Source of the DNA: Oscillospiraceae bacterium | GTDB lineage: Bacteria > Bacillota > Clostridia > Oscillospirales > Oscillospiraceae | DNA length: 33,551 bases | Assembly (NCBI GenBank): GCA_017455685.1 | Contig: JAFSZH010000074.1 | Span: 1-33,551 of the forward strand | Direction of reading: 5' to 3' | Shown: positions 4,501 to 8,026 of the stretch, in pieces | Numbering within the stretch: the stretch's first letter is position 1 | Layout: the number at the start of each line of letters is the position of its first letter | Position numbers and translations under genes: made by a program | Notes under the pieces: model-generated | What the model was told of the DNA's origin: nothing | Databases searched by the model: none | What the model saw: only the letters and a program-made list of their open reading frames with translations

Positions 4501-5113
4501 TCTTTTTGGGGGGGCGCCCGATGCTGCCGCCGTCAGTCAGATCCTGACCGTCCAGCAGCAGGAGCTTCTCCGTGAAGAGCCTGGAAAACCCGGCCAGCAC
4601 GCCGGAGGTGATCACCAGCGCCTCCGGGTTGGGGGCGGCCAGCTCGAAATCATCCGGCTCGTGGCCCAGGATGGGGCCCGCCATCAGCCGGGTCTGGTCG
4701 ATGAAATACCGGGCCGTCTTCCGGTGCCAGGCGGCGTAGACGGTATACACCTGCTCCACCTCCCGCTCAGTGAGACCGATGGGGACGATCTTCTGGATCA
4801 GGGCGATGCTCAGTGACTGCTTCAGCGTCAGGATGATGATGAGATAGGCGATGTGTGTGCGGTAGTACCGGCGTTTGACCGGCTCGGGCATCACCCTGGT
4901 GCGCACGTAGTTGTTGATGGTGGACGCGGTGATGAACTGCTCTTCCTTCAGCTCCGAGGGAAGATAATCCAGATACTTCTGCAGCAGCGCCGTCACCTGC
5001 TCCATATACAGTCCGAAATCGGGGATCTCCTCCCAGGCGGGCAGACGGAAATTCTCCAGATAGGACTCCCAGCGGCGAAGCTTTCCCGCCACCAGCGAAT
5101 TGTCGAAAGCCAC
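4487..5113 (-). CDS. DUF1836 domain-containing protein (putative HTH regulator)
   Basis: A 208-aa protein matching the DUF1836 family. The central segment FITASTINNYVRTRVMPEPVKRRYYRTHIAYL (residues about 60-95) resembles a MerR-like winged helix and is the family hallmark. The helix-rich remainder includes TLKQSLSIALIQKIV. The start is a GTG at 5113 with GGGAGG seven to eight bases upstream; no better ATG precedes it. The tail ends in a basic PPKKIKRT stretch. It stands alone, with a weak TTGTGT-N17-TATGAT promoter upstream. The family is widespread in Firmicutes and its function is not established; a transcription-factor role is inferred from the HTH-like part. Confidence 0.88.
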   Translation of the reverse strand: MAFDNSLVAGKLRRWESYLENFRLPAWEEIPDFGLYMEQVTALLQKYLDYLPSELKEEQFITASTINNYVRTRVMPEPVKRRYYRTHIAYLIIILTLKQSLSIALIQKIVPIGLTEREVEQVYTVYAAWHRKTARYFIDQTRLMAGPILGHEPDDFELAAPNPEALVITSGVLAGFSRLFTEKLLLLDGQDLTDGGSIGRPPKKIKRT

Positions 5114-5145
5114 GGCCTGACCTCCCTTGCAATAGGTATATGGGC

Positions 5146-5174
5146 ATCATACCATTTTTCAATACAAAACACAA
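5146..5174 (-). promoter_or_regulatory. Probable promoter of the DUF1836 gene
   Basis: Minus-strand TTGTGT (5169-5174), 17-base spacer and TATGAT (5146-5151). Confidence 0.4.
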
Positions 5175-5197
5175 GGAGATTTTGAAATAAATATTAG

Positions 5198-5226
5198 TTG
5201 ACTTAATCTTGCCTGTGAGCTATAAT
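5198..5226 (+). promoter_or_regulatory. Strong promoter of the degV operon
   Basis: TTGACT (5198-5203), a 17-base spacer and perfect TATAAT (5221-5226), 33 bases before the first degV start codon. Confidence 0.8.
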
Positions 5227-5259
5227 AATATTCAACATTAGATATCTGGGGATGATCCA

Positions 5260-6165
5260 ATGAGCTTTGCCATAATCACCGACACTTCCGCCAACCTCCC
5301 CACCCCCCTGCTGAAAAAGTACGGCATCCCCGTGGTGCCTTTCTCCTATTTCATCGACGGACAGGCTTTCTCCTGTCTGGACACCGAGGCCTTTGACAGT
5401 CACGGCTTTTACGAGGCGATCCGCCAGGGCACCAGGGTTAGCACCTCCCAGATCAACCCAGGTCTGTTTCTTGAGGCGTTCCGGGGACCTCTGGAAAAGG
5501 GACTGGACGTGCTCTTCGTGAGCATGTCCTCCGGCATCAGCGGGTCCTGCGGCAGCGCCCGGATAGCGGCCGAGCAGCTCTCCGGGGAGTTTCCGGAGCG
5601 GAAGATCCGCATCGTGGACACCATCGGCGCCTCTCTGGGCGAGGGCTTCCTGGCTCTCCGGGCCGTGGAGCTCCGGGACGAGGGCAAGGACGCGGAAGAG
5701 ACCTTCGCCATTCTGGAAGAGCTCAAGCAGCGCATGTGTCAGGTGTTCACCGTGGACGATCTGATGCACCTGCGCTCCACAGGCCGGCTCTCCAACGCCG
5801 CCGCCGTGATCGGCACGGTGCTGAACATCAAGCCCCTGCTGAAGGGCAACGAGCACGGACAGATCGTCTCCTTTGCAAAGATCCGCGGCCGCCGCCGTTC
5901 CATCGAGGCCATCGCCCAGAACTATGACCGGCTGGTGGAAAACGCCGCCGATCAGGTCATCGGCATCGCCCACGCCGACTGCCCGGAGGATATGGAGTAT
6001 CTCTGCTCCCTGCTGCGGAAGAACAACCCGCCCAAGGACATCATGGTAGTGGACTATGAGCCCGTCACCGGCTCTCACGTGGGCCCGGGCGCTCTGGCCC
6101 TGTTCTTCTTCGGCAGCGCCCAGTTCCGCGCAGAAAAGGAAAAACTGCTGAATAAGCTGAAATAA
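5260..6165 (+). CDS. DegV family (FakB-like) fatty acid-binding protein, first copy
   Basis: A 301-aa DegV-fold protein. DegV/FakB proteins bind a fatty acid and present its carboxylate to the kinase FakA, giving acyl-phosphate for phospholipid synthesis. Family signatures are present in order: ITDTSANLP at the N-terminus, the V-S-T-S-Q motif (residues about 63-67), SSGISGSC, VDTIGAS, the FTVDDLMHLRSTGRLS segment, and HVGPGALALFFFG near the C-terminus. The start ATG follows GGGGATG at short spacing. A second degV and a small FakA-like ORF follow on the same strand with gaps under 30 bases, so all three probably form one operon driven by the promoter at 5198. The preferred fatty acid cannot be read from sequence. 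Confidence 0.93.
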   Translation: MSFAIITDTSANLPTPLLKKYGIPVVPFSYFIDGQAFSCLDTEAFDSHGFYEAIRQGTRVSTSQINPGLFLEAFRGPLEKGLDVLFVSMSSGISGSCGSARIAAEQLSGEFPERKIRIVDTIGASLGEGFLALRAVELRDEGKDAEETFAILEELKQRMCQVFTVDDLMHLRSTGRLSNAAAVIGTVLNIKPLLKGNEHGQIVSFAKIRGRRRSIEAIAQNYDRLVENAADQVIGIAHADCPEDMEYLCSLLRKNNPPKDIMVVDYEPVTGSHVGPGALALFFFGSAQFRAEKEKLLNKLK

Positions 6166-6188
6166 ATGAACTTGTACGAGGAAACGCC

Positions 6189-7055
6189 ATGAACGACTAC
6201 GTGATCTTTACCGATTCCGCCTGCGATATCCCCGAGGAAACTCTGCGGGAATGGGGTGTGGGCTACCAGTCTCTCACTTACACCTTTGAGGGCGACCCCA
6301 GGGAATACTCCAACTATGAGCTCCCCTACCCGGAGTTTTACGACCGGGTCCGCAAAGGCGGCGTGGCCAGGACGGCCGCCGTCAGTGCAGGCGTATTTAA
6401 GGACGCGTTTGAAGAGGTGCTTCGCCAGGGGCAGGACATTCTGTACATCGGCTTTTCCAGCGGTCTCAGCACCACCTGCAACTCCGCGGAGATCGCCGCC
6501 GAAGAGCTTCTGGAGAAATATCCTGACAGGAAGATCCGCTGCGTGGATACCCGGGGCGCTTCCGCCGGGTTCGGCCTACTGGTCTACATGGCCGTGGAGA
6601 AAAAGAAAACCGGCGCCTCCCTGGAAGAGGTGGAGCAGCTGATGTTGGACAGCCGCTTCCATCTGTGCCACTGGTTCACCGTGGAGGATCTGGTGTACCT
6701 CAAGCGGGGCGGGCGGATCAGCGCCGCCACCGCCTTTGTGGGGAACATGCTCAGCTTCAAGCCCGTGCTGCACATGGACGATCCCGGTCATCTGATCAAT
6801 ATGTTCAAGGTGCGGGGCCGCAAAGCCTCTCTGGAGGCTCTTGCGGACAAGTACGGCGAGCTGGCTCTGGACAAGGCCAACGGTACGGTATTCATCTCCC
6901 ACGGCGACTGCCGGGCGGACGCCGAAAAGCTCGCCGGCATGCTCAAGGACCGTTACGGCGCGGACGTGGACAGGATCGTATACGTAGGGCCGGTGATCGG
7001 AGCCCACTCCGGGCCGGGCACGCTGGCGCTGTTCTTCCTGGGAAAAGAAAGATAA
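6189..7055 (+). CDS. DegV family (FakB-like) fatty acid-binding protein, second copy
   Basis: A 288-aa paralogue of the preceding gene, from an old duplication judging by the modest identity. It shows FTDSACDIPEETL at the N-terminus, SSGLSTTCNSA, VDTRGASAGFG, FTVEDLVYLKRGGRIS, FKVRGRKASLEAL and HSGPGTLALFFLG. Where the first copy has V-S-T-S-Q, this one reads A-R-T-A-A-V-S, so the lipid-binding rim differs and the two may prefer different acyl chains (inference; S. aureus FakB1 and FakB2 are the known precedent). The start has GAGGAAA eight bases upstream. It lies 23 bases after the first degV and 28 bases before the 87-aa FakA-like ORF. Confidence 0.93.
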   Translation: MNDYVIFTDSACDIPEETLREWGVGYQSLTYTFEGDPREYSNYELPYPEFYDRVRKGGVARTAAVSAGVFKDAFEEVLRQGQDILYIGFSSGLSTTCNSAEIAAEELLEKYPDRKIRCVDTRGASAGFGLLVYMAVEKKKTGASLEEVEQLMLDSRFHLCHWFTVEDLVYLKRGGRISAATAFVGNMLSFKPVLHMDDPGHLINMFKVRGRKASLEALADKYGELALDKANGTVFISHGDCRADAEKLAGMLKDRYGADVDRIVYVGPVIGAHSGPGTLALFFLGKER

Positions 7056-7083
7056 CAAACGTACATAGAAAGGAACCGTAAAC

Positions 7084-7347
7084 ATGGATATGGACGTAGG
7101 CGATTACCGCTATGATACCCAACTGCTCATCGAGGGCGAGGGGCTGGACGAGGACGCGATCAACGATTATTTCCTGGAACACTTCCAGGGGGACTGCCTG
7201 CTGGCCGTGGGCGGAGACGATCTGATCAAGATCCACTATCACACCAACGAGCCCTGGAAGGTGCTGGAATACTGCCGCTCCCTGGGCGAGATCTTCGACA
7301 TCGTGGTGGAGGACATGTTCCGCCAGGCGCGGGGAGAAAAGGGCTGA
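7084..7347 (+). CDS. Stand-alone FakA middle (linker)-domain-like small protein
   Basis: An 87-aa protein that aligns by eye to only one part of the fatty acid kinase FakA, the segment between the N-terminal DhaL/ATP domain and the C-terminal FakB-binding domain. Matching features are Y-x-Y-[C]-T-[E] (here YRYDTQ), GDCLLAVGGDDLIKIHYHTNEP, VLEYCRSLGEI, and the final M-x-x-Q. In FakA this region holds a metal site of one Cys and two His. Here both histidines remain (H51, H53) but the Cys position is Asp11. No ATP-binding DhaL domain is present, so it cannot be a kinase alone. It is third in the degV operon and has a good AAGGAA Shine-Dalgarno. It may be an accessory or regulatory partner of FakB-like proteins, or a decayed remnant; its intact frame, start and terminator favour function. 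Confidence 0.85.
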   Translation: MDMDVGDYRYDTQLLIEGEGLDEDAINDYFLEHFQGDCLLAVGGDDLIKIHYHTNEPWKVLEYCRSLGEIFDIVVEDMFRQARGEKG

Positions 7348-7360
7348 TCGTCCCCATAGC

Positions 7361-7410
7361 GAACCGGGCCGGAAGCGAATGCTTCCGGCCCGGTTCCATT
7401 TGGCTTTTTC
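7361..7410 (+). terminator. Strong terminator of the degV operon
   Basis: A perfect 16-bp stem (7361-7376 with 7381-7396) with a GAAT loop is followed by a T-rich tail ending in five Ts. It lies 13 bases after the operon stop and also faces the convergent permease gene. Confidence 0.9.
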
Positions 7411-8026
7411 AGAATTCTTTTTTCTGATAGAGGCGGATGGACAGCAGCCAGCTGAGGCCGTAAACCACCGTGGCGCCCAGAGCCATGGCGGCAAAGGGAA
7501 CCGAGGAAACGCTCTGAATGCTCTCCAAAGTTTTTGTGCGCATCACCGCGGCGCCTGCTCCGGCGATGAGGGCGATCATGAACATGTAGACAATGCGGCC
7601 CTTCTCCGTACCCAGCCACAGCACCACCGGCATCAGGATGCTGGGGGTGACAAGTCCCACGAACCACAGGATCGCCCCTAAAGTCAGCAGCGATCCCGCC
7701 GCTCCGCTGCTCCCGGAGGCAACGGCGGTCGCCGTCAGGGAGACGGCCAGGACGACGACCTCGATCATCAGTCCCAGCAGATACTTGGCCGAAACGATCT
7801 GGACCCGGGAGCAGGGCAGCGCGGCGCTGTACTGATTCCAGCCGGTGCGCTCATCATAGCTCAGCAGCGTCATGGGCAGGACCCCGCAGATCATGGCGGG
7901 ATACAGCGAGAAAAACAGATTCTCCGGGCTCACAAAGGAAACGCCCAGAAACACCACGACGATCAGCAGAAACGTGCGGCAGTACTTCCAGAGCTGATAC
8001 AGATCCTTCAACAGCAGACCTTTCAT
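7409..8026 (-). CDS. ABC-2 type transporter permease (ABC2_membrane_5-like)
   Basis: A 205-aa permease subunit with six apparent membrane segments. The N-terminal amphipathic start MKGLLLKDLYQLWKY and the cytoplasmic motif SYDERTGWNQYSAALPCSR (about residues 55-73) are typical of the short ABC-2 permeases that pair with YtrA-type regulators. It begins two bases after the upstream ATPase stop, with GGAGG inside the ATPase tail, so the two are translationally coupled. The trio gntR-ATPase-permease forms one unit under the promoter at 9284-9311. Export of an antimicrobial or envelope stress compound is plausible by analogy; no substrate evidence is present. Confidence 0.88.
   Translation of the reverse strand: MKGLLLKDLYQLWKYCRTFLLIVVVFLGVSFVSPENLFFSLYPAMICGVLPMTLLSYDERTGWNQYSAALPCSRVQIVSAKYLLGLMIEVVVLAVSLTATAVASGSSGAAGSLLTLGAILWFVGLVTPSILMPVVLWLGTEKGRIVYMFMIALIAGAGAAVMRTKTLESIQSVSSVPFAAMALGATVVYGLSWLLSIRLYQKKEF

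Follow-up and report, generated by a model that had tools for sequence, protein, structure and literature searches.

The fatty acid kinase Fak is described as a system of two components, FakA and FakB. FakA (VfrB/YloV) combines a Dak2 kinase domain, a middle domain (FakA_L, PF21645) and a FakB-binding C-terminal domain, and two reports deal with the middle domain. According to PMC11617999 it binds zinc and holds the dimer, and its metal triad is 100% conserved among the homologues that this one group examined. In PMC9136124, the Staphylococcus aureus substitutions C240A, H282A and H284A each carry a cost of ∼100-fold; FakA_N by itself shows low activity, and the addition of separate FakA_L restores activity in vitro; and helix alpha14 is needed for a tight FakA dimer.

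Here we describe an 87-aa protein (hereafter the orphan) encoded in a contig of 33,551 nucleotides from an Oscillospiraceae bacterium (JAFSZH010000074.1, assembly GCA_017455685.1; the window). As in the S. aureus reconstitution from FakA_N and FakA_L (PMC9136124), the middle domain is a separate polypeptide; that reconstitution is a laboratory construct, whereas the gene of the orphan occurs naturally, is conserved and encodes a variant site of its own. In contrast to FakA_L as part of FakA, it is free-standing, with neither Dak2 nor FakB-binding domain, ends before alpha14, has Asp in place of Cys240, and carries an invariant Gln13 and near-invariant Trp58 and Cys64. Small proteins encoded on Paraclostridium bifermentans plasmids and named ‘dihydroxyacetone kinase’ or ‘kinase to dihydroxyacetone kinase’ belong to the same family (about 72% identical); their name implies a kinase, whereas a kinase domain is absent from the member in the window, and in the open-access literature we found no function described for them. 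Nor was there a paper on a free-standing FakA middle domain among the open-access matches listed, judged by titles and the starts of abstracts in a collection that lies mostly outside subscription journals and does not extend to preprints.

A free-standing FakA middle domain

Rather than a FakA, the orphan is the middle domain of one, standing alone. A Pfam search at E values up to 1 returned PF21645 (FakA-like_M) alone, at residues 8-83 (E 3e-17; 62.6 bits against a curated cut-off of 24.9), as expected from the preliminary description, which had recognized only the middle segment of FakA and no ATP domain. Neither the Dak2 domain (PF02734) nor the FakB-binding C-terminal domain (PF13684) was matched; the DegV fold (PF02645) was likewise absent from the orphan, although the two ORFs upstream do match it. 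NCBIfam gave weak matches to the middle of YloV/FakA, all far under cut-off. A sequence search of the PDB returned FakA (7w7h, profile E 4.2e-8), and hhalign against FakA middle domains gave a probability of 99.1 (E 1.3e-18). The preliminary description had named two outcomes that would speak against it: lack of a structural match to the FakA linker domain, and relatives that look like random remnants. The fold does match that of the FakA middle domain, and relatives keep both frame and His.

At the positions of Cys240, His282 and His284, both His are present in 128 of 128 aligned rows (127 distinct orphan sequences plus the window's) and Cys is replaced by Asp in every one, in agreement with the H51-x-H53 and Asp11 first noted in the window. 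Identical throughout the 128 rows are D11, Q13, H51, H53, T54, D72, E76, M78 and Q81; Trp58 is found in 127, Cys64 in 121 and Cys38 in 107. Across 47 orphans that are 54-95% identical to the window's, 25 of the 87 positions are invariant. Such conservation among relatives rules out a degenerate remnant.

Details of the locus are given in Table 1. The ribosome site and the two adjacent degV genes are as first described. Promoter-like and terminator-like sites stand on either side of the three genes; the scan gave 1 promoter-like site against 0.9 in shuffled sequence, and 6 terminator-like sites against 2.1. The argument thus rests on position and strength and not on number. An Rfam scan of 4900-7600 found no element at gathering scores.

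Table 1. Features of the orphan locus (positions in the window)
Feature	Position	Strand	Evidence
Putative sigma-70-like promoter for the operon, TTGACT-17-TATAAT	5198..5226	+	consensus scan, 11/12
degV-1 (FakB-like), 301 aa	5260..6165	+	Pfam PF02645, E 8.6e-68
degV-2 (FakB-like), 288 aa	6189..7055	+	Pfam PF02645, E 2.7e-67
AAGGAA, ribosome-binding-site-like, 8 nt 5′ of the orphan ATG	7070..7075	+	read from sequence
Orphan, ATG start, 87 aa; Asp11, His51, His53; fold beta-alpha-beta-beta-alpha-beta	7084..7347	+	
Intrinsic-terminator-like hairpin, 16 pairs, 12 G-C	7361..7396	+	sequence scan

The product of degV-1 scores 159.8 bits on the NCBIfam FakB1 model, under its cut-off of 350. The stretch VSTSQINPG of degV-1 corresponds to RTAAVSAG in degV-2 and to RTSAVNA in three copies from the genus; the fatty-acid-binding motif of degV-2 may thus be altered.

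Distribution and neighbourhoods

A scan of genome_contigs confirmed at least 590 related stretches; a subset of 80 was retained and viewed (some of the other 510 may be full FakAs). The 80 are 74-95% identical, and in all of them the domain ends a short ORF (82-215 aa, with mechanical choice of start); given this, and the number of related stretches, the orphan ORF is not a product of chance. The sources of the 80 include Oscillospiraceae, Lachnospiraceae, Peptoniphilaceae and Erysipelotrichales. The family is real, and among gut-type Firmicutes it is both widespread and highly conserved. Within the window's class the orphan occurs in 30 of 293 sampled genomes (its own included), with one match each, and in 23 of 181 genera; within its genus, in six of nine genomes.

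When 31 orphans and 45 FakA domains are placed in one tree, all orphans fall on the same side of a branch with an SH-aLRT of 100 (with 84 columns, little else is resolved). Repeated splitting of the orphan from each genome's own FakA is not favoured, as the sampled orphans group together. Copies are present on plasmid records of P. bifermentans (3), Subdoligranulum variabile (1) and Lachnospira/[Eubacterium] eligens (2), and on two phage-labelled records (75-80% identity), which fits mobility of the orphan.

Neighbourhoods vary. A same-strand ORF lies ≤150 bp upstream at 65 of 103 flanked loci, with varied functions; in the 62 of these neighbours scanned (L048, L074 and L232 were left out) the commonest family, ThrE_2, accounts for five, and a conserved neighbour function was rejected on these numbers. 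Mechanical ORF calling did miss some neighbours in this survey, for example degV at L150, L230 and L231. It is tempting to see in the patchy occurrence, the plasmid and phage-labelled copies and the lack of a fixed neighbourhood a mobile passenger that spreads with no function in fatty acid activation. High conservation across families argues against this, as do the tie to FakA-bearing genomes and the decay of FakA in carriers set out below; we regard a passenger as highly improbable.

The link between orphan and degV is local to the genus and not general. A degV pair lies directly upstream in five of the six genus carriers (the window, G374, G412, G413 and G415), but not in the sixth (G416). 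Among the 80 kept genome_contigs loci the pair is seen in L002 only, which, with a contig equal in length to that of G415's copy, probably represents the same genome; the 79 others have no adjacent pair within flanks of up to 5 kb, the nearest approach being a lone degV at L071, 2.7 kb away on the opposite strand. No such pair was found at 14 other family carriers, nor at 29 class loci (1.5-kb flanks). A general degV–orphan partnership is thus rejected, as the loci examined show no case beyond the genus; conservation of the small ORF beside degV pairs, a check proposed in the preliminary description, is confined to the genus there. These results bear on the proposal that the orphan is a FakA-independent adaptor of DegV/FakB proteins. 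The degV-degV-orphan order in the five genus carriers suits an adaptor; the absence of adjacent degV elsewhere does not, and neither does isolated S. aureus FakA_L, for which PMC9136124 gives no detectable FakB1 binding. An adaptor of this kind is very unlikely.

Occurrence with FakA

A FakA-length Dak2 frame was found in 28 of 29 class carriers other than the window's own genome, and in 47 of 50 genomes behind genome_contigs loci (chosen by locus number modulo 8 from the 79 loci other than L002). The orphan is present with no FakA-length kinase detected in the draft genomes G286, G419, G437 and G457, and L252-L256 show short Dak2 frames and no FakA. In the window's own genome, which is 72% complete, no Dak2 domain was seen when a full-length fakA was sought. 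Of 78 class genomes with no PF21645 match none has a FakA: 12 encode Dak2 proteins, which reach at most 30.1 bits on the FakA profile. Over the 293 class genomes the orphan occurs in 28 of 213 with FakA and 1 of 79 without (Fisher p 0.0015; p 0.005 if the window's genome is counted as FakA-less, giving 2 of 80), where a PF21645 match, rather than a search for Dak2, is the ground for taking 185 non-carriers as FakA-bearing. By this tally the orphan is associated with FakA-bearing genomes.

Loss of the FakA metal site in carriers

In an alignment of 147 FakAs we looked at the columns that correspond to Cys240, His282 and His284. The HxH, which is essential in S. aureus, is missing in 21 of 93 FakAs from orphan-carrying genomes and retained in 72; the latter indicate that the orphan is not always needed. 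By sample, losses number 3 of 28 in the class, 1 of 18 in family plus genus, and 17 of 47 in genome_contigs, the strongest sample, which is made up of the orphans closest to that of the window and comes without matched non-carriers. No loss was seen in 96 FakAs from orphan-free genomes of the family (27 + 69), nor in the 27 class non-carriers read. The 27 class and first 25 family non-carriers were top-scoring and hence biased to intact sites; the further 69 family rows remove this bias for the family only, and complete its 120-genome sample except for G396, cut by a contig end. The reading leaves out a FakA of G412, one of two long Dak2 frames in G465, and the additional copy that G356 and G378 each have. 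For most class non-carriers the judgement was based on the PF21645 score, and in three of the 185 (G052, G083 and G169) this is close to the lowest that a lost FakA can have. Among the FakAs read, then, the HxH of FakA's own metal site is lost only in orphan carriers, an observation that is new here.

Most of the middle domain is deleted in two of the lost FakAs (L220 and L282, 502 and 504 aa); others are full length with ligands missing. In L277, L279 and L294 the loss is partial, the first His being kept. Losses in genome_contigs fall in Peptoniphilaceae, other Tissierellia, Lachnospiraceae, other Clostridia and Erysipelotrichaceae, and G374, in the window's own genus, also has a FakA without HxH, as does the orphan carrier Pseudobutyrivibrio xylanivorans DSM 14809. 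To judge by sequence, kinase and C-terminal domains otherwise look mostly intact: GARGNSG is found in all 21, GGQTMNPS in 20 and the full DGDTGTNM block in 18. In a Pfam scan of 20 of the 21 (L287 left out) the FakA-C profile matched at full length in every case and Dak2 scored 130.6-153.5 bits, as against 129.7-159.7 in other FakA-length frames (a range that omits one second frame at 117.8 bits). PF21645 gave no match in eight, 20.8-45.4 bits in 11 and 62.1 bits in L294.

The association between HxH loss and orphan is likely real, but not proven. Pooled counts (21/93 against 0/96) give p 9e-8, a figure that takes no account of ancestry and combines different samples. When the exact test is confined to comparisons within families, for the three loss-holding families of the class and family samples, p is 0.0055, with most non-carriers in two of the three judged by score alone. 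For the class sample (3/28 against 0/185) p is 0.002, or 0.03 if the three low scorers are losses; the family alone (1/18 against 0/96) is not significant (p 0.16). On a FastTree phylogeny of FakA columns without the middle domain (143 rows of ≥480 aa, all different; the four shorter of the 147 omitted) the losses need 11 changes, 10 of them forced by starred branches, loss and regain not being distinguishable in such a count. An independent sister-pair test gave no support for the link (median p 1): over 10 loss-differing pairs the orphan differed in the same way 0.7 times on average, never in the opposite way, and not at all in 9.3. The orphan rarely differs within pairs and informative pairs are too few, which accounts for this outcome; it lowered slightly our confidence in the explanation favoured below. 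Orphans beside lost FakAs are not better conserved, with a mean identity to consensus of 0.866 (17 lost) and 0.889 (30 intact).

A decoy was among the roles first proposed for the orphan. As we would picture it, the orphan binds the FakA middle domain at its dimer face, breaks the homodimer and so tunes the kinase. FakA dimerizes through its middle domain (PMC11617999, PMC9136124), and FakA is intact in most carriers examined; both points speak for a decoy. A decoy leaves unexplained both the decay of FakA's ligands in carriers and the orphan's unbroken retention of Asp/His/His. Because FakA loses its own ligands where the orphan is present, regulation by decoy is less favoured than replacement in trans, and we consider it quite unlikely.

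The Asp variant

The Asp is a natural variant that extends beyond the homologues reported as fully conserved, since it is also built into 46 of the 96 family non-carrier FakAs. Full-length FakAs with Asp for Cys240 (FDTV...HVHT) include L368, L378, L382-L386, L390, L392 and others in the family; in a published alignment this Cys is described as invariant.

Cys-less copies of zinc ribosomal proteins offer an analogy for a further alternative, by which the orphan is a backup of Asp type for another metal or for zinc shortage. The replacement of Cys by Asp in all orphan rows is in keeping with this, and Asp/His/His (DHH) domains are found in none of the 18 family carrier FakAs (17 CHH, one lost) as against the 46 non-carriers (p 4e-5). 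In the sampled tree, however, a single branch sets off the DHH FakAs, so that this split may reflect ancestry alone, and one genome_contigs carrier does have a DHH FakA. Moreover, the 200 nt before 79 orphans hold no Zur-box within 6 mismatches (1.5 expected from shuffling); at 7 mismatches there are 10 against 5.5 expected. A metal-variant backup is, on this evidence, unlikely.

A possible third Fak subunit

The explanation that we favour, and hold to be on balance probable, is that the orphan serves as a FakA_L in its own right, acting in trans with the FakA of the chromosome and probably required where the site of FakA has decayed. It would dock on FakA and supply an Asp/His/His module, presumed to bind metal, to the kinase domain, which, with activity so restored, would phosphorylate FakB-bound fatty acid. 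This is the simplest reading, and it has a precedent in vitro in separate FakA_L, which restores the activity of S. aureus FakA_N. Points against it are the HxH retained in 72 carrier FakAs, the outcome of the sister-pair test, the carriers in which no FakA-length kinase was detected, and the end of the orphan before alpha14; given this end, it may pair with the remaining sheet of FakA and not with itself. Most carriers have a built-in Cys/His/His domain that is intact, and to this the orphan, with Asp for Cys, would be an alternative; in several lineages, which correspond to some ten changes on the tree that we read as losses and not regains, the site of FakA would have decayed and the orphan is probably a required third Fak subunit. 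Redundancy first and decay later would explain the intact FakA of most carriers.

Possible but rather doubtful is a broader version, in which the orphan is a mobile, interchangeable catalytic and dimer module of Asp type that repeatedly replaces the Cys type of FakA and, where both coexist, lets Fak switch between metal or regulatory states.

The observation in the preliminary description is thus confirmed and its interpretation partly supported: it was right about a detached middle domain with a conserved Asp/His/His site, whereas the tie to degV is not general. The role that we prefer is replacement in trans; the metal switch that was also named there is a possible one. If that role is correct, many gut Firmicutes use a third, separable Fak component, and the triad-less FakAs are natural test cases in the dispute between a catalytic role for the triad (PMC9136124) and a structural one (PMC11617999). 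Public names for the orphan are ‘dihydroxyacetone kinase’, ‘kinase to dihydroxyacetone kinase’ and ‘hypothetical protein’; family members annotated as ‘dihydroxyacetone kinase’ are, by domain content, not kinases.
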